Shown one piece after another: positions 1,123-20,087 of a stretch of DNA of 25,792 nucleotides. The stretch is from a virus. A program made the position numbers and the translations under genes. Every line of letters begins with the position of its first letter. Position 1 is the stretch's first letter. Where the stretch lies: IMG/VR virus record IMGVR_UViG_3300037041_000008, positions 1 to 25,792 of that record; one strand, written 5' to 3'. A model generated the notes under the pieces. It worked only from the letters and a program-made list of their open reading frames with translations. It searched no databases and was not told the origin of the DNA.

Positions 1123-1419
1123 ATGACACAAGAAGATGAAAAGTTTATTCAAGACAATATCTACAACTTTGAGTGCGTTAAGGTTGGGTTTATGAAGAAT
1201 CTACCTTTGCATATCTTGGTGGGTTATGAGCAGATTTATCGCAGATACTTAGATGGTGGGTTTATACTGACCTCCTGGTGTAGTAATTGCGTTGCAGATA
1301 TGATGAAGCGGTTGAGTAGATATTGGGATGAATACCAAGCAAGTAAACCTATTGAGGTTGAGCAACCCATCCAAGAAGCACCAAAGAAAAAAGGTAGACC
1401 ATTTAAAAAATCACAATGA
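1123..1419 (+). CDS. hypothetical protein with WCSNC motif and AT-hook-like tail
   Basis: A 98-residue protein of unknown function. A conserved-looking SWCSNCVADMMKRL segment (a CxxC within a helix start) lies near residues 51-64. The last 15 residues are basic and contain KKKGRPFKK, which resembles the GRP core of an AT-hook DNA-binding motif. The linker before it is Glu/Pro-rich. A DNA-associated role is therefore possible but only inferred. Its stop overlaps the start of the glycosyltransferase gene by ATGA at 1416-1419, implying translational coupling to the glycosylation genes. Confidence 0.65.
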   Translation: MTQEDEKFIQDNIYNFECVKVGFMKNLPLHILVGYEQIYRRYLDGGFILTSWCSNCVADMMKRLSRYWDEYQASKPIEVEQPIQEAPKKKGRPFKKSQ

Positions 1420-2420
1420 GAATAATCACAGTAGGTCAGCGAAACTCAGGGGTATCTTTCCATCGGTTATTCAACCCCATCATGTACCTTCCTAAAGATT
1501 TCGCAATGATGACCGATGTACTTACCGAGGAAGAACTTGAGAAGGGTTATGACATTGTTTTTATAAATAGGTACATTGCAGGGATGGAGGTGTATGAGTT
1601 GGTAAGACTGCGTGAGAAGTACGGATTCAAGTTGGTAGTTGATGTTGATGACTATTGGCATCTTGACCCGTGGCATATCTTATACGGAAAATACCCGTAC
1701 AAAAAAGTCATTGACCATATCAAGGTAGCAGACCTGGTTATCTGCTCAAACAATGATTTGGCAGTTTATGTAGATGAACTTAATCCGAATTGGATAGTAA
1801 TACCTAATGCCTTGCCTTATGGCGAGGACCAGTTCACGGATGTCAAAACAGAATCAGATAAGGTCCGCTTTGTTTATGCAGGTTCGGTAACCCATGAGAA
1901 GGATATTGCAATCCTCAAGAATCCAATGAAAAGAGTGGCAGGGGATGCATTTACAAAGAACAACTCAAGGTTCATTCTTTGTGGTTATAGCGAAGATAAG
2001 CAGGTTGCAAACGTATGGGGTAAAATGATTAACGATTATCTTTGTGGGTTCAAAGTTGATGGCTACATACGGGGTGCGTTACCAGTTGACCAATACATGA
2101 ACTTTTACAATGAAGCAGATGCTTGTTTGATTCCTTTGGTTGATTCCAAGTTTAACTCAATGAAGTCTAACCTGAAAGTCTTGGAGGCAGCAACTAAGAA
2201 TGCAGCAGTAATAGCATCCAATGTCAAACCTTATTGTGAATGCCCACACATAATATCAGTAAACAATCAAGGTGATTGGTTTACAAATATTAAAAAAGTT
2301 GTCAAAGATGCTATATATAGACAAGAGATGGGTATTGCAAATGGGGAATGGTGCAGGGAGAACTTTGACCTTGTTAAAGTAAATAAGTTGAGGTCACAAG
2401 TATTTGAATCAATTATATGA
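1416..2420 (+). CDS. GT-B fold glycosyltransferase, GT4-like
   Basis: A 334-residue predicted sugar transferase acting in the cytosol; no signal peptide or membrane helix is seen. The N-terminal half has Rossmann-like strands (MRIITVGQRNSGVSF; LVVDVDDYWHLDPW). The C-terminal half contains VRFVYAGSVTHEKD and then a SNLKVLEAATKNAAVIAS segment, the E-x-x-A nucleotide-sugar-binding helix and loop of GT4-type enzymes. DADACLIPL-like residues (EADACLIPL) precede it, as in that family. Length fits a compact GT-B enzyme. Donor and acceptor cannot be read from sequence. The gene shares ATGA overlaps with both neighbours and heads the glycosyltransferase block, suggesting one modification pathway for virion, host surface or DNA. 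Confidence 0.85.
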   Translation: MRIITVGQRNSGVSFHRLFNPIMYLPKDFAMMTDVLTEEELEKGYDIVFINRYIAGMEVYELVRLREKYGFKLVVDVDDYWHLDPWHILYGKYPYKKVIDHIKVADLVICSNNDLAVYVDELNPNWIVIPNALPYGEDQFTDVKTESDKVRFVYAGSVTHEKDIAILKNPMKRVAGDAFTKNNSRFILCGYSEDKQVANVWGKMINDYLCGFKVDGYIRGALPVDQYMNFYNEADACLIPLVDSKFNSMKSNLKVLEAATKNAAVIASNVKPYCECPHIISVNNQGDWFTNIKKVVKDAIYRQEMGIANGEWCRENFDLVKVNKLRSQVFESII

Positions 2421-2659
2421 AAGCACAATTAACCTTTGACCTTGATGACTATGATGATAAGATTGAACACCTTAGATGCATTCAAGCATCAGACTTGTGC
2501 AGTGCCATTCATGAATTTATTTACAATACAAAGAAGGGTTTGAAGAATGAAGCAGAAGCAAAAAACCTTGATGCATACGAGGCAATTAACTCAGTATATG
2601 AAAAGTTTTGGGATATACTTAAAGAGCATAACTTAGACATAGATAAACTGATACAATGA
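2417..2659 (+). CDS. small phage protein of unknown function
   Basis: An 80-residue, acidic, helical-looking protein beginning MKAQLTFDLDDYDDK. This opening, followed by a helix with regularly spaced hydrophobic residues, is familiar from small Bacteroidota phage proteins without known function. It overlaps the upstream glycosyltransferase by ATGA (2417-2420) and the zinc mini-protein downstream by ATGA (2656-2659). Translation is therefore likely coupled across all three. No motif suggests catalysis. Confidence 0.65.
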   Translation: MKAQLTFDLDDYDDKIEHLRCIQASDLCSAIHEFIYNTKKGLKNEAEAKNLDAYEAINSVYEKFWDILKEHNLDIDKLIQ

Positions 2660-2775
2660 AGTACCAACCTAAATGGGTAACGTGTAAGAACTGCCATAAG
2701 AAGTACACCATTACTATCATCAAATCAAAGGCAAAAGAAAGCAAGTGCGGTAATTGTGGAACTATAAATAAATAA
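2656..2775 (+). CDS. 39-residue zinc-ribbon mini-protein
   Basis: The ATG overlaps the previous stop (ATGA) and the stop lies one base before the next glycosyltransferase start, so the gene exactly fills the gap. The product is 39 residues with CKNC (C10, C13) and CGNC (C31, C34), separated by a Lys-rich loop: a minimal zinc ribbon. It has no recognisable enzymatic part. The precise fit between neighbours and the two clean CxxC pairs argue that it is real. It could help fold or recruit a partner or bind nucleic acid; the sequence does not decide. Confidence 0.65.
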   Translation: MKYQPKWVTCKNCHKKYTITIIKSKAKESKCGNCGTINK

Positions 2776-2776
2776 A

Positions 2777-3559
2777 ATGAAAAGAGTATTAATCGCAATG
2801 GCGGTCCATGATACAGAGGAAAACAAGAGGACCGAATTAACAAAGGATGTCCTTGATAACTTATTTATTCAAGGTGTTTTTGTAGACCATGATTTTTGGG
2901 TGGTAGATAATAACTCTTGTCAAGCGACTAAAGACCTGCTTAAAGAATGGCAAGATGATGGGTACATAAACCTTATCACCAATGAACAGAACATTGGGAC
3001 TGCCGAGGCGGTTAACCTTGCTTGGAAGTACAGAGTACCTGGTCAGCATTGCATAAAGATGGATAACGATGTTCTTATCTATTCTGATTCTTGGGTTACT
3101 GAAATGGTTGAGGCAATTGAAAGAGATGAGAGAATAGGTATAGTTGGATTGAAGCGGAAAGATTGTTGGGAAGAACCGAACCATGCCTTGCCTGATTGGA
3201 GAAGTGAATTGATAATGCTACCTCACATGGCGGGTCAAAGGTGGATGATAGTTGAGAAATGTCATCACATTATAGGTACTTGCCAAATGTACTCATCTAC
3301 ATTATTAGACAAAATAGGGTATCTTTACCAACCTTCTCTTTATGGGTATGATGATGTCCTTGCATCTCATAGGTCAACAGTTGCAGGGATGTGGAATGTG
3401 TTCTTGCCTCATATTGAGATAGACCACATTGACAAGGGAGAAACCGAGTACCAATCTTGGAAGGAGAAGCACAGTTCAGAAGTAACCCAACAAGTAATTA
3501 AGATAACCCATGAGTATTATCACGGGGTAAGACCAATATACTATAATCCGTACCAATGA
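2777..3559 (+). CDS. GT-A fold glycosyltransferase, family-2-like
   Basis: A 260-residue cytosolic glycosyltransferase. The start MKRVLIAMAVHDTEEN is the first GT-A strand. WVVDNNSCQATKDLL and NIGTAEAVNLAWK match the nucleotide-sugar-binding region of family 2 (compare NxGxxxAxNxG). KMDNDVLI (D96-N97-D98) is the DxD metal-binding motif. A second acidic patch, YGYDDVLA, near residue 193 is in the position of the acceptor/catalytic region. Length is close to the minimal GT-A catalytic domain, without membrane anchors. It overlaps the next gene by ATGA. Donor sugar and acceptor are unknown. Confidence 0.85.
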   Translation: MKRVLIAMAVHDTEENKRTELTKDVLDNLFIQGVFVDHDFWVVDNNSCQATKDLLKEWQDDGYINLITNEQNIGTAEAVNLAWKYRVPGQHCIKMDNDVLIYSDSWVTEMVEAIERDERIGIVGLKRKDCWEEPNHALPDWRSELIMLPHMAGQRWMIVEKCHHIIGTCQMYSSTLLDKIGYLYQPSLYGYDDVLASHRSTVAGMWNVFLPHIEIDHIDKGETEYQSWKEKHSSEVTQQVIKITHEYYHGVRPIYYNPYQ

Positions 3560-4179
3560 AAATAATAGTTTCTTTAGATAACCCGAATCACCCAGGGTGG
3601 TTGAAGTTAGAGGAATCACTCAAACGGCACGGATGGGATTACATTACAATAGTCAAAGAGTGGAAAGGGTTTGGAACTAAGATTATAGGACTTTATGAGC
3701 ATCTTGTCAACTCTTATGATGATGACTTCATCTACCTTGATGCATACGATAACTATTGCATAGCACCACCCGATGAGTTTAACTATAAGCACAGAGGAGG
3801 TACTGGTTTAATTATAAGTTCAGAGAAAGGATGTTACCCCGATTCGCATAATAGGGGAAAGTTTCCAAGCGTACCTCATGAATGGAAGTATCTAAACTCG
3901 GGGCAGATATATGGGAGAAGGGAGGACTTTATGAAGTTATTTGAACAGAACCCAGTCCGCTTTGAAGATGATGACCAAAGATGGTATACGGACCGCTTTT
4001 TAGAAAGAAGGTCAAGCATAAGCCTTGACTACTGCAACATCTTCCAATCCGTTGCCTTTGAGGTAGAAGGTGACTTTACTTTAACGTACAATAGATTGTA
4101 CAACAACAAAACCCATACCTTCCCTATGTTCATTCACGGGAACGGGAAGACTGATATGACAAAATTTTATCAACTATGA
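3556..4179 (+). CDS. PLOD/procollagen-type glycosyltransferase-like protein
   Basis: A 207-residue compact GT-A-like enzyme. The order of motifs resembles the glycosyltransferase domain of procollagen-lysine hydroxylases (LH3/PLOD). YLDAYDNY (D62, D65) is the DxxD metal site. IISSEKGCYPDS follows, then YLNSGQIYG (N114, S115, G116), the acidic DDDQRWYTDRFL stretch (D138-Q141), LDYCNIFQS, and a C-terminal HGNGK (H194-G197). In the animal enzymes this domain adds sugars to hydroxylysine in collagen; whether the phage protein uses such an acceptor is unknown. No hydroxylase domain is present here. ATGA overlaps on both sides tie it to the family-2 enzyme and the methyltransferase. Confidence 0.8.
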   Translation: MKIIVSLDNPNHPGWLKLEESLKRHGWDYITIVKEWKGFGTKIIGLYEHLVNSYDDDFIYLDAYDNYCIAPPDEFNYKHRGGTGLIISSEKGCYPDSHNRGKFPSVPHEWKYLNSGQIYGRREDFMKLFEQNPVRFEDDDQRWYTDRFLERRSSISLDYCNIFQSVAFEVEGDFTLTYNRLYNNKTHTFPMFIHGNGKTDMTKFYQL

Positions 4180-4847
4180 TGGAAGAACTGGTAAAGGATT
4201 ACACCGACAAGGTGAATGCCGATAATGAACTTAAAGCCTATCGGGATTGGATAGAAGCAAACGCTTTCGGATTCGGGGAAAGATGCTTTCTTTGGATGTG
4301 GAATGAGATTGTAAAGAAGATGCCTGATGAATTTACCTTTATGGAGATAGGGGTCTTTAGAGGGCAGATACTTGCCATTGTAAGTCTACTTGCAGAACGG
4401 CACGGCAAGAAAGTTAGGCGAATAGGAATCACCCCACTTGATACCTCAGACGGGCATTGGGAAAGCGACTATGAAGCAGACATAATAAGACTGCATGATG
4501 TGTTTAATATCAAGGATGACTATGAGTTAATCCGTTTAGATTCAACCAACCCTAATGCTATCAAGTTAGCCTCACAGAATCCTCCTGATGTACTTTACAT
4601 TGATGGAGGACATACCTACGAAGTAGTAAAGTCAGACCTAACCCATTACCTTCCCATCCTTAAAGTAGGTGGTACATTGGTAATAGATGATTGTAACAAT
4701 GCAATACCTATGCCTTGGGGTTACTTTCAAGGTATTCAATCGGTATCACTTGCGGTTGATGAGGTCCTCCCAAGGGAAGGTAGTAATGAGTATTGGAAGC
4801 ATGAGTTAAACCTTGTACATAATCGTGTATTAACTAAACTTAAATAA
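4176..4847 (+). CDS. class I SAM-dependent methyltransferase (Methyltransf_24-like)
   Basis: A 223-residue Rossmann-fold methyltransferase. Motif I is FMEIGVFRG (residues 55-63), with the SAM-binding acidic and glycine residues. The motif after strand 4 is DVLYIDGGHTYEVVKSDL (about 143-160). PILKVGGTLVIDD follows as strand 5. The IDGGHxY signature is typical of Methyltransf_24 and sugar or small-molecule O-methyltransferases rather than of DNA methylases. Placed directly after three glycosyltransferases with 4-bp coupling, it may methylate a transferred sugar, as in capped glycans; this is inference. TAATG at 4845-4849 couples it to the ParB-methylase gene. Confidence 0.85.
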   Translation: MMEELVKDYTDKVNADNELKAYRDWIEANAFGFGERCFLWMWNEIVKKMPDEFTFMEIGVFRGQILAIVSLLAERHGKKVRRIGITPLDTSDGHWESDYEADIIRLHDVFNIKDDYELIRLDSTNPNAIKLASQNPPDVLYIDGGHTYEVVKSDLTHYLPILKVGGTLVIDDCNNAIPMPWGYFQGIQSVSLAVDEVLPREGSNEYWKHELNLVHNRVLTKLK

Positions 4848-6043
4848 TGAATCCTATTAAAGTTAAAATCAGCGAAATAAAGTCTAACCCGAACAATCCA
4901 AGAATCATCAAGGATGATAAGTTCCAAAAGTTAGTAAAGTCAATCAAGGAGTTCCCTGAGATGCTAAATATTAGACCAATAGTGGTTAATGCTGATATGG
5001 TTGTACTCGGTGGCAATATGCGACTAAAGGCTTGCAAGGAAGCAGGGATAAAAGAGGTTGCAATAATTAAAGCAGATGACCTAACCGATGAACAACAGAA
5101 GCAGTTTATCATTAAGGATAACGTAGGGTTCGGTGAATGGGATTGGGAGGACCTTGCTAACAACTGGGATGCTGAACAGTTAACCGATTGGGGGTTGGAT
5201 ATACCCGACTTTAAACCAGAGGTCCTTGAAGCAGAAGAAGATGACTTTGAAGTACCCGATGGGGGTATTGAAACAGATATTGTGCTTGGTGATTTATTTG
5301 AGATAGGGGAGCATCGTTTGCTTTGTGGGGATAGTACGGATAGCGACCAAGTAGCAAAGTTGATGAACGGACAAAAGGCTGATATGGTATTTACTGACCC
5401 TCCTTATGGTATGGCATACGAGAGCAATGCCTGGGATAGTAAAAAAACAGAGGTAAAACAAAAAAGAACTGATACTCAGATATTAAATGATGAAAATACA
5501 AATGTAGGTCAAGACGCTTTAAACTTAATACCATTATTTTTAAATAACGATAGGCATTTTTATATTTGGTGTAGATGGGATTGCTTTAATGATTTTAAAG
5601 AAGTTTGTCAAAACATAGGAAAAATTAAAAGTGTTGTAGTTTGGGACAAGGGCGGTCCAGGTTTGGGTGATTTGAAAGGTTCATACGGAGATAGCGAATG
5701 GGCAATATTCGGAATGATAGGCAGAAGAGAATTAAAAGAAAGGCAGAATGGGGTTTGGCAAGTAAATAGAATGAAAGGCTTACAAATGCAACACCCTACT
5801 CAAAAACCATTAGAAATATGCGAAAGAGGTATAAATAATTCTACTTACATAAATGAATTGATTCTTGACTTATTCTTAGGTTCTGGTTCAACAATGGTGG
5901 CAAGTCATCAACTCAAACGCAAATGCTATGGCATGGAATTAGACCCAAAATATTGTCAAGTTATAGTGGATAGGATGCTGAAACTTGACCCAAGTTTGGA
6001 GGTCAAGAGGAACGGAGAGAAGTATATTAAAATAGTGAAGTAA
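4847..6043 (+). CDS. ParB-like domain fused to beta-class DNA (N4/N6) methyltransferase
   Basis: A 398-residue two-domain protein. Residues 1 to about 95 are a ParB/Srx-type domain (SNPNNPRII; VLGGNMRLKACKEAG). The rest is an amino-methyltransferase with DPPY (D184-Y187, motif IV) upstream of FLGSGST (343-349, motif I) and a final GMELDPKYCQVIVDR. Motif IV before motif I is the beta order, with the target-recognition region between. It probably methylates adenine or cytosine exocyclic amines in phage DNA and protects against host restriction; no cognate nuclease is adjacent. The stretch from about 5430 to 5900 is visibly A/T-richer than both flanks and may be a recombined recognition and catalytic block. 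Confidence 0.88.
   Translation: MNPIKVKISEIKSNPNNPRIIKDDKFQKLVKSIKEFPEMLNIRPIVVNADMVVLGGNMRLKACKEAGIKEVAIIKADDLTDEQQKQFIIKDNVGFGEWDWEDLANNWDAEQLTDWGLDIPDFKPEVLEAEEDDFEVPDGGIETDIVLGDLFEIGEHRLLCGDSTDSDQVAKLMNGQKADMVFTDPPYGMAYESNAWDSKKTEVKQKRTDTQILNDENTNVGQDALNLIPLFLNNDRHFYIWCRWDCFNDFKEVCQNIGKIKSVVVWDKGGPGLGDLKGSYGDSEWAIFGMIGRRELKERQNGVWQVNRMKGLQMQHPTQKPLEICERGINNSTYINELILDLFLGSGSTMVASHQLKRKCYGMELDPKYCQVIVDRMLKLDPSLEVKRNGEKYIKIVK
5430..5900 (+). other. A/T-rich mosaic block inside the methyltransferase gene
   Basis: Between the DPPY motif and motif I the coding style changes. AAA, TTA, ATA and AAT codons dominate here, while the flanks prefer AAG, GAG, CTT and GTT. The frame is uninterrupted. 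The boundaries sit just after the DPPY segment and near the FLGSGST codons. This is the expected position of the target-recognition region in a beta-class enzyme, so a swap there would change sequence specificity. The borders are judged by eye and are accurate only to a few tens of bases. Confidence 0.45.
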
Positions 6044-6053
6044 TAGAGAGCAC

Positions 6054-6416
6054 ATGGCAAACGAAAAGAATTTAAAACCATTTAAGAAAGGCGAGGTTGC
6101 TAACCCAAACGGCAGACCGAGGAAGTATGTATCCTTACTTAAAGAGCAGGGGTACAAACTGGCAGAGGTTAACGATTGTATCCAAGCAATTATGTCAATG
6201 GATATGCAGGAACTCAAAGCGGTATGGGATAACCCGAAGGCAACTGTACTTGAAAAAACGATTGCAGGGGCATTAAGGAAGTCATTGGAGAAGGGCAGCC
6301 TTTACTCTATTGATACTCTACTTACCAGGGTGTACGGCAAACCAAAGGAAACTGCTCACATAACCAATGATGGGAAGATTGAGGTGGTATTTACTAAGGG
6401 CAAAACGATTCTATGA
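6054..6416 (+). CDS. terS: terminase small subunit-like DNA-binding protein
   Basis: A 120-residue basic protein beginning with FKKGEVANPNGRPRKY, the GNPxGRP signature found at the N-terminus of DUF5681-type and phage small-terminase-like proteins. The middle is helical, including a VLEKTIAGALRKSLEKG segment followed by YSIDTLLTRVYGKPKE. This resembles the helical and oligomerisation part of short terminase small subunits. It overlaps the large-subunit start by ATGA at 6413-6416, the classical terS-terL arrangement and the strongest support for the call. It would recognise the packaging site and load the motor. The name is assigned by position and partial motif, not by a full-length match. 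Confidence 0.75.
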   Translation: MANEKNLKPFKKGEVANPNGRPRKYVSLLKEQGYKLAEVNDCIQAIMSMDMQELKAVWDNPKATVLEKTIAGALRKSLEKGSLYSIDTLLTRVYGKPKETAHITNDGKIEVVFTKGKTIL

Positions 6417-7570
6417 TTATTGAACTACCCGAACCACATAAAAACCAAATCGGTATCATTGAATCTGAAGCAAGGTTCAGAGTGGTTATGTGTGGCAGGA
6501 GGTTTGGCAAGTCTGAACTCAGTCAGGTAGAAATCATTAAGAATGCCATTGTGGGGCAATCTGTTGCCTATATTACCCCTACTTATAACCTTGCCAAGAC
6601 TTTCTTTGACAAACTTGCTAAAGCGGTTCCTTTCGCCTCTAATCGGTCTGATTTGACTATTGAGTTCCCGAACGGGGGTTCAGTTCAATTCTTTACTGGG
6701 GAGAGGTTGGATAACCTGCGAGGCAGAAAGTTCCACTTGGTTGTGGTAGATGAAGCATCTTTCATCCCTAACCTTGAGGATGGGTGGTTGAATAGCATCA
6801 GACCTACCCTAACCGATTACAAGGGGAAAGCCTTATTCTTGTCAACCCCAAAGGGTAAGAACTACTTTTACTCTTTGTTTATGAAAGGTAACAGTGGTGA
6901 GGAAGATTGGCAATCTTTCAAGTTCAGCACCTATGATAACCCGTACATAGACAAGTCAGAGGTGGATTCTGCAAGGATGCAACTCCCTGAGGTTGTATTT
7001 GAGCAGGAATATATGGCAAATCCTGCTGAGAATGCTGCCAACCCATTTGGTTCTGCATTCATTCGCCAATGTATCTACCCGATGAGTAATGGACCAGTTG
7101 CTTGTTATGGGATAGACCTTGCCAAGTCGGTGGACTTTACAGTCATAACGGGGTTAGACAAGAATGGGTCTGTCTGTCATTTTGAACGATTCCAAAGGGA
7201 TTGGAGGCAAACTAAAGAGTATATCATCAATTTACCTAAAGCACCTATCCTGATGGATAGCACGGGGGTAGGCGACCCAATTTTTGAAGATATGCAAAGA
7301 GAAGGGTTAGATGTGCAAGGGTATAAGTTTAGCAGTACCTCAAAGCAGATGCTCATGGAGGGTCTTGCCTCTGCCATACACCAAAGGAAGATAACATACC
7401 CGAGCGGTCCTATTGTGGATGAGTTGGAAATCTTTGAGTACCAGTACACATCCTACGGGGTAAAGTATTCAGCACCCCAGGGGTTCCATGATGACTGCGT
7501 TGTTTCCCTTTCCCTTGCTTGGCAGCACCTCCAAAAGAATGTGGGGAGTGGGAGGTATTCTTTTTGTTAG
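6413..7570 (+). CDS. terL: terminase large subunit (ATPase and nuclease)
   Basis: A 385-residue packaging motor. The ATPase domain has Walker A CGRRFGKS (27-34) and Walker B VVVDEAS (D113, E114). FLSTPKGKNYF provides the coupling (motif III) region. The nuclease domain is of RNase H type: GIDLAKSVDFTVI (D235), ILMDSTGVGD (about 280) and HDDCVVSLSLA (D360, D361) supply the metal ligands. It cuts concatemeric DNA and translocates it into the prohead through the portal. The length is slightly short but all motifs are intact. The gene is followed by a long gene-free stretch rather than by the portal, which lies more than 10 kb downstream. Confidence 0.95.
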   Translation: MIIELPEPHKNQIGIIESEARFRVVMCGRRFGKSELSQVEIIKNAIVGQSVAYITPTYNLAKTFFDKLAKAVPFASNRSDLTIEFPNGGSVQFFTGERLDNLRGRKFHLVVVDEASFIPNLEDGWLNSIRPTLTDYKGKALFLSTPKGKNYFYSLFMKGNSGEEDWQSFKFSTYDNPYIDKSEVDSARMQLPEVVFEQEYMANPAENAANPFGSAFIRQCIYPMSNGPVACYGIDLAKSVDFTVITGLDKNGSVCHFERFQRDWRQTKEYIINLPKAPILMDSTGVGDPIFEDMQREGLDVQGYKFSSTSKQMLMEGLASAIHQRKITYPSGPIVDELEIFEYQYTSYGVKYSAPQGFHDDCVVSLSLAWQHLQKNVGSGRYSFC

Positions 7571-7632
7571 GGAGAAAGTTAGGGTGGAAACTGGGGGGAA
7601 ACTACTTTCTTAAAAATATTTTCCTAAAAAAG

Positions 7633-7661
7633 TTAGCATTCCAAAATATTTAGTATTTTTG
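7633..7661 (+). promoter_or_regulatory. putative Bacteroidota-type promoter with overlapping inverted repeat
   Basis: TATTTTTG at 7654-7661 is a full match to the Bacteroidota -7 element TAnnTTTG. A weak -33 counterpart TTAG lies at 7633-7636 with a 17-base spacer. A 6-bp inverted repeat, TTAGCA (7633-7638) and TGCTAA (7660-7665), brackets the two elements and could be an operator. The predicted start, near 7667, leads directly into the hairpin series. The -33 match is poor and no transcript data are available. Confidence 0.4.
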
Positions 7662-7666
7662 CTAAG

Positions 7667-7763
7667 TCAATCCGAATAATAGAAGCAGTATCATTCGGGT
7701 TTGATTCAAGCAAACCTGCTTAAATTAGACCCATACCCTGCTTCGGTGTGGGTTCTTTTTTTT
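7667..7763 (+). ncRNA. candidate small non-coding RNA, about 95 nt
   Basis: Three consecutive hairpins lie between the promoter-like site and a U-tract. The first pairs CCGAAT (7672-7677) with ATTCGG (7693-7698), extended by a further short ATA/TAT pairing inside. The second pairs GTTTG (7699-7703) with CAAAC (7711-7715), one base after the first. The third is the terminator stem. No frame of useful length is present. Having promoter, compact fold and terminator together is what a small RNA gene looks like. It could equally be a leader or attenuator for the 8070 operon. I do not recognise a known RNA family. Confidence 0.4.
7729..7763 (+). terminator. Rho-independent terminator
   Basis: ACCCATACC (7729-7737) pairs with GGTGTGGGT (7745-7753) in a 9-bp stem containing one T-G wobble. 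The loop has 7 bases. An eight-T run follows at 7756-7763. It is the strongest intrinsic terminator shape in the window and would close either the terL transcript or the candidate small RNA. Genes from 8070 onward would then need their own promoter or read-through. Confidence 0.8.
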
Positions 7764-7780
7764 ACCTATCTTCGGGATGA

Positions 7781-8029
7781 TTGGGTCTTAACACGGGTTC
7801 ACCCCAACTTTAGCACAAAAAGTAAATGAATGAACGTGTCATCTATGCTTAACAGTTCGCTTCGGTAACGGACTGGAGATGATAAGAACGGGATAAAAGT
7901 GGTAGTAATTACAATGATAACTACCGACAAGGATAACCAAAAAACCCGTTCTCCCTTCTTGGATGGGGGTGCATAGTTTGGCAATGATTGGGAGTGCTAA
8001 AGAATCCCATGAACTCAAGGGTATCCTTG
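7781..8029 (+). repeat. cluster of inverted repeats with RNA-like structure
   Basis: Several stems can be read by eye. TTGGG/CCCAA (7781-7785, 7803-7807) and CAGTTCG/CGGACTG (7853-7859, 7869-7875, one wobble) come first. AGAACGGG (7885-7892) pairs with CCCGTTCT (7945-7952), enclosing GGTAGT/ACTACC (7901-7906, 7920-7925). TGGGA/TCCCA (7989-7993, 8005-8009) and CAAGG/CCTTG (8016-8020, 8025-8029) follow. The nested 8-bp outer and 6-bp inner stem is the best supported. Together they may be the 5' leader of the 8070 operon, a structured RNA, or protein-binding DNA sites. Confidence 0.45.
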
Positions 8030-8069
8030 GATAGACATTGTATTACACTTAACATCAAATCAACTATTT

Positions 8070-8753
8070 ATGGGTATGACTTGGTCCGATGTAACAGTTT
8101 TCCAATACCAGCAGATTAATGACATCTATGCTAATGCAAAGGAGTTAACCGACCTTGATTTGAGCATTAAGGTAACTTCTATTCTAAAGAACATGACCGA
8201 GCATCAGATTGATTCTTTACCAGTTAAAGAACTTGGTCCATTGCTTGAATCTATCTCTTTTGTTCATCAGGAAATCCAACCCCAAGCGGTGGACAGAATT
8301 AAGGTTAATGGTAGGGTTTACAAGTGCATTTACGATGTTAGGAATATCCCTGCTGCACGTTATATTGAATCCAAGCACTTTAGTTCTGATGTGATGGGAA
8401 ACCTGCATAAGATATTCGCTTGTATGGTTATACCTCAAAAAAAGACTTGGTTAGGGTGGAAGGATGATAAATACGATGCAAGTAAGCATTCAGACTACGC
8501 ACAAGATATGCTTGAAGCACCAATCGTAAACGTTCTCGGTTCGGTTGTTTTTTTTTATCAAGTCTACAATCTTTGGATAAGGAATTCCAAGGACTATTTG
8601 GTAAATCAGATGATGGAGGCGAAGATGAGCAGGGAGGAGGCAGAGAAGGGATGGGAGGCTTTATGCAGCATTATGGGTGGATTTATCAAACCAAGTTGGT
8701 TGCCGACTTTGAAGGCATCACGCTTAACCAAGCATTTGACTTACCTACAATAA
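8070..8753 (+). CDS. tail assembly chaperone-like protein, zero-frame product
   Basis: A 227-residue protein with no enzymatic motif. The N-terminus (MTWSDVTVFQYQQINDIY) is followed by helical segments, a VYKCIYDVRNIPAARYIES strand-helix unit and a hydrophobic VLGSVVFFYQVYNLWI near residue 160. The codons for the two Phe at 161-162 are the slippery T_TTT_TTT. Beyond this the zero frame continues for 65 residues with a helix containing MSREEAEKGW. Position upstream of tail genes, the slippery site and the overlapping -1 frame make it resemble a gpG-type chaperone that guards the tape measure. That role is inferred from arrangement, since I do not recognise a family with certainty. Its leader is the structured gene-free region. 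Confidence 0.7.
   Translation: MGMTWSDVTVFQYQQINDIYANAKELTDLDLSIKVTSILKNMTEHQIDSLPVKELGPLLESISFVHQEIQPQAVDRIKVNGRVYKCIYDVRNIPAARYIESKHFSSDVMGNLHKIFACMVIPQKKTWLGWKDDKYDASKHSDYAQDMLEAPIVNVLGSVVFFYQVYNLWIRNSKDYLVNQMMEAKMSREEAEKGWEALCSIMGGFIKPSWLPTLKASRLTKHLTYLQ
8549..8555 (+). promoter_or_regulatory. putative -1 programmed ribosomal frameshift site T_TTT_TTT
   Basis: A nine-T run (8548-8556) places T_TTT_TTT exactly in zero-frame phase (codons 8550-8552 and 8553-8555). A -1 slip continues at TTA 8555-8557. The -1 frame has its last upstream stop (TGA) at 8513-8515 and is then open to 8836, so the site lies inside the permitted interval. The fusion would be about 255 residues (162 + 93). A 7-bp hairpin, CTTTGGA/TCCAAGG (8571-8577, 8586-8592), begins 15 bases downstream, rather far for a stimulator. 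Confidence 0.55.
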
Positions 8754-17715: not shown

Positions 17716-18093
17716 ATGATACAACTCACTCAAGGAGAAACCGAGTTCATTTATTTAACCCTAACGGAGAAGCAAACCATTGCATCTCCTAATTACCTAT
17801 TCCGTTTTGTCAATAGGACCACACGGGATGAGGTTGCTTTTGTTTTACTTTTTGCTTTGGATGTATCCATTTATAAGGATAGGTACAATAAATTCAGCAT
17901 CAAAGTGCCTAAATACTTTGGATTAGGTAACATTGGCGAGTGGTTGTATTATGTCTATGAGCAGACAAGTGCTTACAATGTAGACTATACCCAAGCAACG
18001 GGATTGCTTGAGGAGGGAATAATGAAACTGTCACCATCAACAACTTTTGAGTACACTCAACATGAGGTTGACAATACATACATAACACGATGA
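17716..18093 (+). CDS. small structural protein of unknown role
   Basis: A 125-residue protein. The ATG at 17716 is preferred; extending upstream would run the frame into the terminator hairpin. It begins MIQLTQGETEFIYLTLTEKQT and continues with YLFRFVNRTTRDEVAF, then RYNKFSIKVPKYFGLGNIGEW and a YYVYEQTS strand. This beta-rich pattern, with a ligand-like short domain, resembles N-terminal domains of baseplate or fibre-attachment proteins (BppU-N-like) and recurs in Bacteroidota phages beside portal genes. No enzymatic residue is visible. It overlaps the portal start by ATGA (18090-18093). Confidence 0.6.
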   Translation: MIQLTQGETEFIYLTLTEKQTIASPNYLFRFVNRTTRDEVAFVLLFALDVSIYKDRYNKFSIKVPKYFGLGNIGEWLYYVYEQTSAYNVDYTQATGLLEEGIMKLSPSTTFEYTQHEVDNTYITR

Positions 18094-20087
18094 ATGATTT
18101 AGTAATATTAAACTTTCAAGAAGCAAGGCAACCTGAGTACAGAGAGAAACGGGGTAAAGGATATATTGAGTTTGGCGAAAAGAACGATTACCCAAACTAT
18201 TTGCTTTCTCTTTACAATAAGAGTGCAAAGCACAACGCAATCGTTAAAGGAAAGGTCAATTACATCATAGGCAATGGTTGGAAATCCGATGAGGTTGACC
18301 CTATTGCAGAGCAGTTCATTGCTCAACCTAATCAGTTTGAATCTTTGAACGATTTGACAAGGAAGGTATCAATAGACATTGAAATCTTTGGCGGTGCTTA
18401 TCTTGAAGTAATTTGGTCTTTAACGGGTGGCAAGTTGGTTGATGTTTTACATATCGACTACACCAAAATAAGGTCCAACACAGATAACACTCAGTTTTGG
18501 TACAAAAAAGATTGGGCAGAAAGGAAAGACGAGGCATTTGCCATGATGGCATTTAACACCCAAGTCAGACAAGGTAAGCAGATACTTTATGTAAAGGAAT
18601 ACAGACCGGGTTTAGATACTTACGCTTTGCCGGGTTACATGGGTGCGTTGAACTATATTGAATCAGATATTGAAGTCAGCAGACACGTTTTGGGGAATGC
18701 TCAAACCGGATTCAGTGCATCCAAACTTATCACCCTTCCCAATGGCGAACCTTCACCTGATGAGAAGCGGAATATTGAGAGAAGGTTTACAGATAGGTTT
18801 AGTGGTTCAGATGGCAAGAAGTTTATCTTGTCATTTACAACTGACCCTGCGAGGAAGCCTATTATTGAGGACCTTGGTGCATCTGACATAACCAAAGAGG
18901 ATTTCACAAGGGTTGATTTGATTATTCAGAATAACCTTTTCGCAGGGCATCAAATTACTTCACCAAGTCTTTTCGGTATTGCTGAACCTGGGCAACTTGG
19001 TTCAAGAACACAGATGCGTGATTCTTATGAGATATTTAAGAACACCTATGTAAACGATAAGCAGCAATTTATTGAATCAGTTTTTAATCAACTTGCAAGA
19101 CTTAAAGGTGCAACCTCTGATATAAATATCATCCCAGTAGAACCTATTGGCTTTGAACTAAGCGAGGCAGCACTTTTGCAGATTGCTCCAAAAGAGTGGT
19201 TACTTGAGAAGGCAGGTATTGATGTTTCTAAATATCAACCAGTTTTAGATGAAAATATTACTAACCAACCAACAATAGACCAAGTTCAAGCAGAGGTAAA
19301 CGATAACCTAAAGAACCTTAGTGGTAGACAATATCAGCAAGTTATGAGGGTTATTAGGCAGTTCTCTCAAGGTAAGATTACCAAAGAGATTGCTACCACT
19401 ATGCTAAAAGCAGGTCTTGGAATGACTGATTCTGACATTAACGCAATGCTCGGAATAGATGATGACCCTTCAACAGATGACTTCCAGTTCTCTGCTCTTG
19501 ATGAGGACACAGTCATCGGAATGTTTAGCGAATGCGGTGAACCAAAGTGCAATTATAACATATTGCATTCAAAGGCGGTATTTAGTGCGAGAGAGGCATT
19601 TGCAGAGGATTCCTTGATAGATAAAGCATTGGATAAGCAAATCCTTGCCTTGATTGATAAAGACCCGAAAATAAGCATAGATGACATTGCAGGGGCAACT
19701 AAGAAAAGCCGTGATGTTGTACAAGGGAGATTGAGTTACTTGGTTGAATCGGGTGCGATTAATTATGACCCAAAGGTTGAGGAAAGGAAACTGACCAAAC
19801 CATTGAGCAAGTTGGTTGATGATATGGAGGTTACAATCTTTGAGGTTAGATACTCTTACGAGTGGAAGCCTATTGTCCCATCTTCTCAACGTGATACTGC
19901 TGCCCATCCTTCTCGGCAATTTTGCAGGAAGTTGATTGCAGAGGATAAACTTTGGACACGAAAGGGAATTGAGATGCTAAGTGCAAGACTTGGTTACTCT
20001 GTTTTTGACAGAGGCGGTGGATGGTGGGGGAACTCTGCAAGTTGCAGACATGAGTGGAGAAGAAACGTAGTAGTAAAAAAGAAATAA
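18090..20087 (+). CDS. portal protein with long C-terminal extension
   Basis: A 665-residue protein. The first 350 residues match a phage portal: GKGYIEFGEKNDYPNYLLSL, then IIGNGWKSDE, LTRKVSIDIEIFGGAYLEVI, YIESDIEVSRHVLGNAQTG and FAGHQITSPSLFGIAEPG. The C-terminal 300 residues are extra. They comprise a helical linker, a winged-helix-like unit near 505-570 (IDKDPKISIDDIAGATKKS) and a terminal unit with HPSRQFCRKLIAEDK, RLGYSVFDRGGGWWG and SCRHEWRRN, resembling the Cys/His-containing end of Mu gpF-like minor head proteins. The protein thus seems to fuse portal and head-morphogenesis parts. It forms the dodecameric DNA gate used by terminase. Confidence 0.85.
   Translation: MNDLVILNFQEARQPEYREKRGKGYIEFGEKNDYPNYLLSLYNKSAKHNAIVKGKVNYIIGNGWKSDEVDPIAEQFIAQPNQFESLNDLTRKVSIDIEIFGGAYLEVIWSLTGGKLVDVLHIDYTKIRSNTDNTQFWYKKDWAERKDEAFAMMAFNTQVRQGKQILYVKEYRPGLDTYALPGYMGALNYIESDIEVSRHVLGNAQTGFSASKLITLPNGEPSPDEKRNIERRFTDRFSGSDGKKFILSFTTDPARKPIIEDLGASDITKEDFTRVDLIIQNNLFAGHQITSPSLFGIAEPGQLGSRTQMRDSYEIFKNTYVNDKQQFIESVFNQLARLKGATSDINIIPVEPIGFELSEAALLQIAPKEWLLEKAGIDVSKYQPVLDENITNQPTIDQVQAEVNDNLKNLSGRQYQQVMRVIRQFSQGKITKEIATTMLKAGLGMTDSDINAMLGIDDDPSTDDFQFSALDEDTVIGMFSECGEPKCNYNILHSKAVFSAREAFAEDSLIDKALDKQILALIDKDPKISIDDIAGATKKSRDVVQGRLSYLVESGAINYDPKVEERKLTKPLSKLVDDMEVTIFEVRYSYEWKPIVPSSQRDTAAHPSRQFCRKLIAEDKLWTRKGIEMLSARLGYSVFDRGGGWWGNSASCRHEWRRNVVVKKK

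Follow-up and report, generated by a model that had tools for sequence, protein, structure and literature searches.

Does the gene-free interval behind the terminase gene of this phage encode a structured RNA and, if so, what would that RNA do? The stretch analyzed here (hereafter, the window), a virus contig of 25,792 bases, belongs to a group of tailed phages of roughly 35 kb. A previous reading of the same DNA, made without database searches (the sequence-only reading), had described 130 bases with no reading frame inside a gene-free gap, and the 499 bases between terL and the gene at 8070 (7571-8069) indeed lack a credible one. In the rest of the window, positions 1416-4847 hold several predicted glycosyltransferases in a row along with a methyltransferase, a ParB-like nuclease/DNA methyltransferase fusion (4847-6043) lies ahead of terL, and the portal gene (18090-20087) sits 3' of the tail block; no tRNA or tmRNA was called by ARAGORN. 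Relatives were drawn from IMG/VR metagenomes, a terminase search giving 80 of them. The TAnnTTTG/TTTG promoter type (PMC6847099) and two TerL homologues (61-62%) in Pollutibacter soli point to Bacteroidota hosts.

Promoter, hairpins and terminator of the leader RNA

The features of the locus are collected in Table 1. A lone TAnnTTTG octamer is uninformative, as 24 occur in the window vs. 30 expected by chance. The full element singled out by the sequence-only reading was corroborated by its fixed position: TAnnTTTG stands exactly 4 nt 5' of the conserved RNA (A) in 39 of the 46 distinct upstream sequences, the other seven having TATTTTCG, and the N positions of the box vary among them. In most of these sequences a -33-like TTG/TTAG/TTTG is found 18-20 nt upstream of the -7 box. 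In Flavobacterium johnsoniae promoters the G of the -7 box corresponds to position -5 (PMC6847099), a spacing that predicts a start at 7666. This is where the conserved block begins, one base off the 5' end near 7667 proposed earlier. The 6-bp inverted repeat said to bracket the promoter (TTAGCA/TGCTAA) does occur in the window, but relatives do not keep it in register; it was therefore rejected as an operator, and the regulation it had been supposed to allow found no support.

Table 1. Features of the terL-tail gene interval in the window.
Feature	Position	Strand	Remarks
terL	6413-7570		terminase of ordinary large-subunit type
Bacteroidota-type promoter	7632-7661	+	fixed position in 46/46 distinct relatives; consensus from PMC6847099
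-33 element GTTAG	7632-7636	+	CTTGG/TTTG in relatives
-7 element TATTTTTG	7654-7661	+	
Leader RNA A, ~98 nt	7666-7763	+	predicted start to end of T-run; covariance model and alignment of relatives
Hairpin 1	7669-7701	+	apical loop GAAGCAG, 7682-7688
Hairpin 2	7702-7727	+	loop AACC, invariant in main class
Hairpin 3 (terminator hairpin)	7728-7754	+	apical loop CTGCTTC, 7738-7744
T8 tail, intrinsic terminator	7756-7763	+	
Structured RNA B1, multi-branched	7783-8045	+	outer helix TGTCATCTATGC/GCATAGTTTGGCA; one of four exchangeable RNAs
First protein gene after B1	8070-8753	+	227 aa, function unassigned; opens tail-gene block

The three adjacent hairpins and the terminator with an eight-T tail proposed from the sequence were recovered as well. 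Folding of the 97-nt strand gave -31.3 kcal/mol vs. -17.2 ± 3.4 kcal/mol for shuffles (z = -4.2, 0/200 shuffles), a value to be read knowing that the terminator by itself supplies much of the folding energy. The T-run directly follows a GC-rich hairpin in all A copies, and the window copy, which is not independent of the A covariance model, scores 96.9 bits against it. On these comparisons there is strong support for A being a genuine structured RNA that has a promoter and a terminator to itself. Neither A nor the downstream RNAs (B, see below) had a match in Rfam 15 at or above the gathering threshold, and permissive searches gave no credible one, in agreement with the earlier statement that no known family was recognized. 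The best sub-threshold match of A was the trpB motif (RF04312; 23-30 bits at E 0.15-0.68, the gathering score being 59), which also has two hairpins and a U-tail and was rejected as a chance resemblance of terminator architecture. No published description was found in a literature search that covered few subscription journals and preprints; as far as the literature searched shows, A is unreported.

Complementary loops and the alternative fold

Hairpin 1 and the terminator hairpin have apical loops that are reverse complements of each other, a feature absent from the earlier note. Perfect complementarity over 6-8 nt was found in 44/44 distinct A copies, and it holds in 35/35 distinct loop pairs comprising 18 different loop sequences (mean match 7.0 nt vs. 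4.2 nt after re-dealing the loops among copies). Loop sizes are also matched, a 6-nt loop always being partnered by a 6-nt loop. In a 33-sequence alignment all seven pairs of the loop-loop helix change on both sides, with 97% of cells paired; hairpins 1 and 3 covary in their upper stems too (alignment columns 12-30 and 75-85), and each of the three hairpins has compensatory changes of its own. Such changes, whose absence from the stems would have counted against the original proposal, were thus found both in the stems and in the loop pair. Within the sequence comparison, the covariation of the loops constitutes the strongest evidence for a function of A and for the formation of both hairpins. 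That the loops vary freely is compatible with neutral drift under pairing in cis and with selection for specificity in trans alike.

A second, terminator-free fold is available to A. In this nested rod, the 3' arm of hairpin 1 and the 5' arm of the terminator extend hairpin 2, with the loops paired, and the 5' end of A pairs with the 3' arm of the terminator, so that no terminator is formed. Mean energies over the 44 copies were -31.7 kcal/mol for the three-hairpin fold vs. -31.0 kcal/mol for the rod, and the model predicts that a rod-like form would be favored by about 10 kcal/mol before the 3' arm of the terminator is synthesised. Controls in which the hairpin-1 pairs were re-dealt averaged -22.7 kcal/mol, 3.6% of them reaching the observed energy; given that the segments are nearly invariant, including the lower stem of hairpin 1, this percentage is weak and the bistable fold comes near to a single evolutionary observation. 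The predicted isoenergetic folds are suggestive of a switch. In the leaders upstream of putative replication genes described below, the nested alternative falls short by 5-17 kcal/mol, which argues against a fold switch as a general property of the design.

Genomic placement and leaders of the same design

The RNA was detected in ~56 IMG/VR contigs (51 viral contigs by pattern and five through searches with the downstream RNAs). Among cultured phages, searches with DNA and protein retrieved distant terminases only and no relative of the A region. An exact-pattern scan of a genome collection gave no A, nor did a search of 395 Bacteroidota genomes with the covariance model, run without a positive control; in P. 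soli, A was absent from both TerL loci and from the rest of the genome.

In the clade of the window A sits 3' of terL, often with small moron-like genes between. This interval is a hot spot of small inserted genes in L006, L009, L016, L020, L022, L023 and L028; several of these genes carry a TAnnTTTG promoter of their own, some resemble HNH endonucleases, and a GGGAGGTTCGCCTCCC terminator often closes them. The A block is missing, with a short gap instead, in relatives with a closely related terminase such as L011, L026 and L029, and it is absent throughout two near-full-length relatives (G022, 33,235 bases; G023, 34,618 bases); the TerL of the near-full-length relatives of 33-35 kb lacking A is 81-94% identical. 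In phages of 49-64 kb, the cassette formed by A and B adjoins genes of dNMP-kinase, metallophosphoesterase and HTH type (judged from translations), not terL. Since it is missing from close terL relatives and stands beside unrelated genes in the larger phages, the A-B cassette is, on this comparative evidence, mobile or exchangeable and not part of the packaging machine. The small RNA placed after the terminase gene by the sequence-only reading is real, but it is the first part of a larger unit and not tied to the terminase.

Wherever the sequence continues for 130 nt or more past A (76 loci in about 55 contigs), one of four structured RNAs comes next, with a spacer of 9-25 nt from the T-run. 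These RNAs, B1 to B4 (seen 3' of A in L107/L094/L092/L119), measure about 230-400 nt and are exchangeable. Conversely, scans seeded from B recovered A upstream in 16/16 contigs for the 5' motif common to B1 and B4 (GGGTCTTANNACGGKTTCACCCC), 30/31 for B2, where the single one without A is interrupted by the contig end, and 5/5 for B3. Compensatory changes are present in B1, B2 and B3, and a helix swap was seen directly in B3 (GGUGAU/AUCACC to GGUAGU/ACUACC). More than half of the 46 distinct spacers, non-terL phages included, have no TAnnTTTG-like site; in terL phages with B1, a TAnCTT(T/C)G site stands 3 nt beyond the T-run and may serve as a promoter of B's own. The window scan gave no terminator-like site between B1 and the gene at 8070. 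Loop types and B types reassort (GTAGAG, for instance, occurs with B1, B2 and B3), and a pairing between loop and B was rejected on these grounds.

Two short direct copies (GACGGAATAG and TTCGGGAATAG) were observed in B2 (L094, minus strand, about 700-870). They vary jointly across relatives (GAGTAG/GAGTAG, GTATAG/GTATAG, GACTGT/GACTGT), as if one common partner paired with or recognized both. Next to B in L030, L095 and L123 there are tRNA-like sequences (GTCAGGTGGCGGAA ... CAGGTTCGAATCCTGCCCTGACTAC) with odd central insertions and no ARAGORN call.

A weak match of the A model in a sister record (G025) led to a leader of unrelated sequence built on the same plan: promoter, 5' hairpin, terminator hairpin with a complementary loop, T-run, and the ATG of a DUF1376-type gene. 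Among 80 relatives of this gene (L141-L220), representing 62 distinct upstream regions, complementarity of at least 6 nt between a loop and the terminator loop was found in 51/62, vs. 5.3% of shuffles. At least four sequence-unrelated leader classes stand upstream of DUF1376-type genes, and their loops covary (GTAGGAT/ATCCTAC, GTCGGAT/ATCCGAC, GTCGTAT/ATACGAC, AGGCAG/CTGCCT, ATGCAG/CTGCAT, GTGTCCG/CGGACAC, GTAGCCG/CGGCTAC), in a listing of pairs that includes one or two chance pairs (AAAAAAAG/CTTTTTTT) and overlooked most of those of class C1 (GTAGAGTG/CACTCTAC, GTAGTGTG/CACACTAC). Class C1 precedes varied gene types (HTH_36, Lin1244_N, DUF1376) and is present together with A in three contigs; going by their families, the genes downstream of C1 and of the DUF1376-type leaders would have a role in replication. 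In most of the DUF1376-type leaders the ATG follows the T-run within about 10 nt, so that a second promoter would not fit between them. Their linker of some 15-30 nt permits kissing and, as the nested alternative is much less stable, the loops would meet only as a kissing pair. Some of these leaders have weak T-runs, and there control of translation is possible.

What the leader would do, and known systems

Our preferred reading, to which we assign a probability of about 0.5, is that A is a transcription attenuator leader with its terminator coupled by kissing to the 5' hairpin, controlling B1 and possibly the tail genes. Comparison among relatives establishes the promoter, the three hairpins, the covarying loops, the order of A and B, and the recurrence of the design before protein genes. 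The arrangement found, with promoter, leader and intrinsic terminator upstream of a candidate regulated unit, is that of an attenuator, because the terminator lies between the promoter and an ATG about 10 nt off, or 9-25 nt ahead of a structured RNA; A would belong to this kind of leader by layout only. We infer a conditional or partial terminator under the control of loop pairing. The inserted transcription unit would consist of promoter, A, intrinsic terminator, structured RNA B and downstream gene, and a 7-bp loop-loop (kissing) helix would couple the terminator hairpin physically to hairpin 1. The leader would in this way set the share of RNA polymerase stopping at 7763 vs. reading into B1 and possibly into the tail genes; the tail genes are probably under A too, since nothing resembling a terminator lies between B1 and the first of them. 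Pairing could take place in cis, which by a geometric estimate may be strained in A, as hairpins 1, 2 and 3 are joined without a linker, or in trans between a finished leader and a nascent one, in which case control would be self-specific and dose-sensing. Of the three roles offered by the sequence-only reading, the attenuator is thus the best supported and packaging RNA is disfavored; no specific target was found for an antisense regulator.

It is possible, if considerably less probable, that A acts mainly in trans, as a small RNA or an RNA dimer, and that the terminated transcript of ~98 nt is itself the product. Its loops would then pair between molecules, as a closed dimer or chain, or with the copies of a co-infecting phage, conferring self/non-self specificity in the manner of ColE1 RNAI/RNAII or P4 CI RNA immunity. 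This would account for loops that vary freely over invariant stems, with nearly all pairs Watson-Crick, for the matching of 6-nt loops, for a loop type independent of the downstream RNA, and for hairpins joined without a linker. However, a free small RNA would not need the constant cis coupling of A to B, and no trans target was found. Lysogenic immunity is moreover unlikely, since no integrase was found in near-full-length relatives. A more general proposal, which we regard as doubtful, is a self-specific RNA switch of Bacteroidota phages in which the loop of the 5' hairpin must match that of its own terminator; placed before replication genes and exchangeable RNAs, it would use the loop as an incompatibility or superinfection-immunity label, a leader RNA silencing only phages with the same loop.

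An ordinary terminator closing the late operon after terL, next to an ordinary promoter and merely stabilized by the loop pairing, appears unlikely. The terminator is strong, and moron-type genes with their own terminators lie just upstream in relatives, but the promoter is upstream of the terminator with the leader alone between, hairpin 1 and its covarying loop would be left pointless, the whole block is missing beside closely related terminases, and the same design precedes replication genes. It is equally hard, or slightly harder, to see A and B as two parts of one mature RNA or ribonucleoprotein, with the T-run as a linker: their co-occurrence is complete for B1-B4, yet the T-run comes right behind a GC-rich hairpin in all copies, the loop sequence is not associated with the type of B, and the design occurs without B upstream of protein genes. 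A packaging RNA whose two loops join subunits on the motor is highly improbable, given that, despite its position after terL in the clade of the window and two complementary loops in one RNA, A is lacking in near-full-length relatives with similar TerL, lies beside dNMP-kinase and nuclease-type genes in phages of 50-64 kb, and accompanies a terminase of ordinary type.

The phi29 pRNA is a phage RNA of ~100 nt with two complementary loops. A resembles it in both size and loops, but is not terL-bound and is dispensable in close relatives, and one of its arms is a terminator hairpin; conservation with the terminase, as for a phi29-type RNA, was not observed, A being absent from G022 and G023 and elsewhere located away from terL. 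The rep-gene attenuators of plasmids pT181 and pIP501 have a terminator in the 5' leader before the replication gene, governed by a countertranscript from an opposite promoter, and in ColE1 the RNAI/RNAII hairpin loops are fully complementary over 7 nt, their sequence setting specificity. Leaders of the A design share with these systems the terminator before a replication gene and the complementary loops; the plasmids use a countertranscript, whereas in A both loops are on one transcript. No minus-strand TAnnTTTG, as for a pT181-type antisense promoter, was found between 5507 and 9263 of the window. The engineering of attenuators is treated in two papers (PMC3753616, PMC4878617).

GOLLD and ROOL are ornate phage RNAs, structured, with kissing loops and sometimes located beside tRNA genes (PMC12286853). 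Like A and B, they are phage-encoded and structured and have no assigned function (PMC12286853), and kissing loops are predicted for A as well, but they are much larger, and A and B have no Rfam match. The results add an RNA family not described before, in which covariation is unusually clear, and four more unreported types of structured RNA linked to it. They also add a leader design found upstream of putative replication genes in several sequences unrelated to one another. Should the loops act in cis, this would be a new way of coupling a terminator to a 5' structure; should they pair between separate molecules, apparently virulent phages would possess an RNA specificity system coded in sequence.

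The CI RNA of satellite phage P4 is processed from a leader and pairs with seqA and seqC (PMC4825925). P4 leader termination immunity resembles A in being based on a phage leader with self-complementary segments and a short RNA product, predicted in the case of A, and it resembles the DUF1376-type leaders in complementarity and position, as these would terminate prematurely upstream of putative replication functions. The pairing differs, being with seqA and seqC in P4 and between a loop and the terminator loop in the A and DUF1376-type design; there is also no sign of lysogeny here, and A itself precedes non-coding RNAs. With these differences, RNA immunity of the P4 type may be regarded as the nearest functional precedent.
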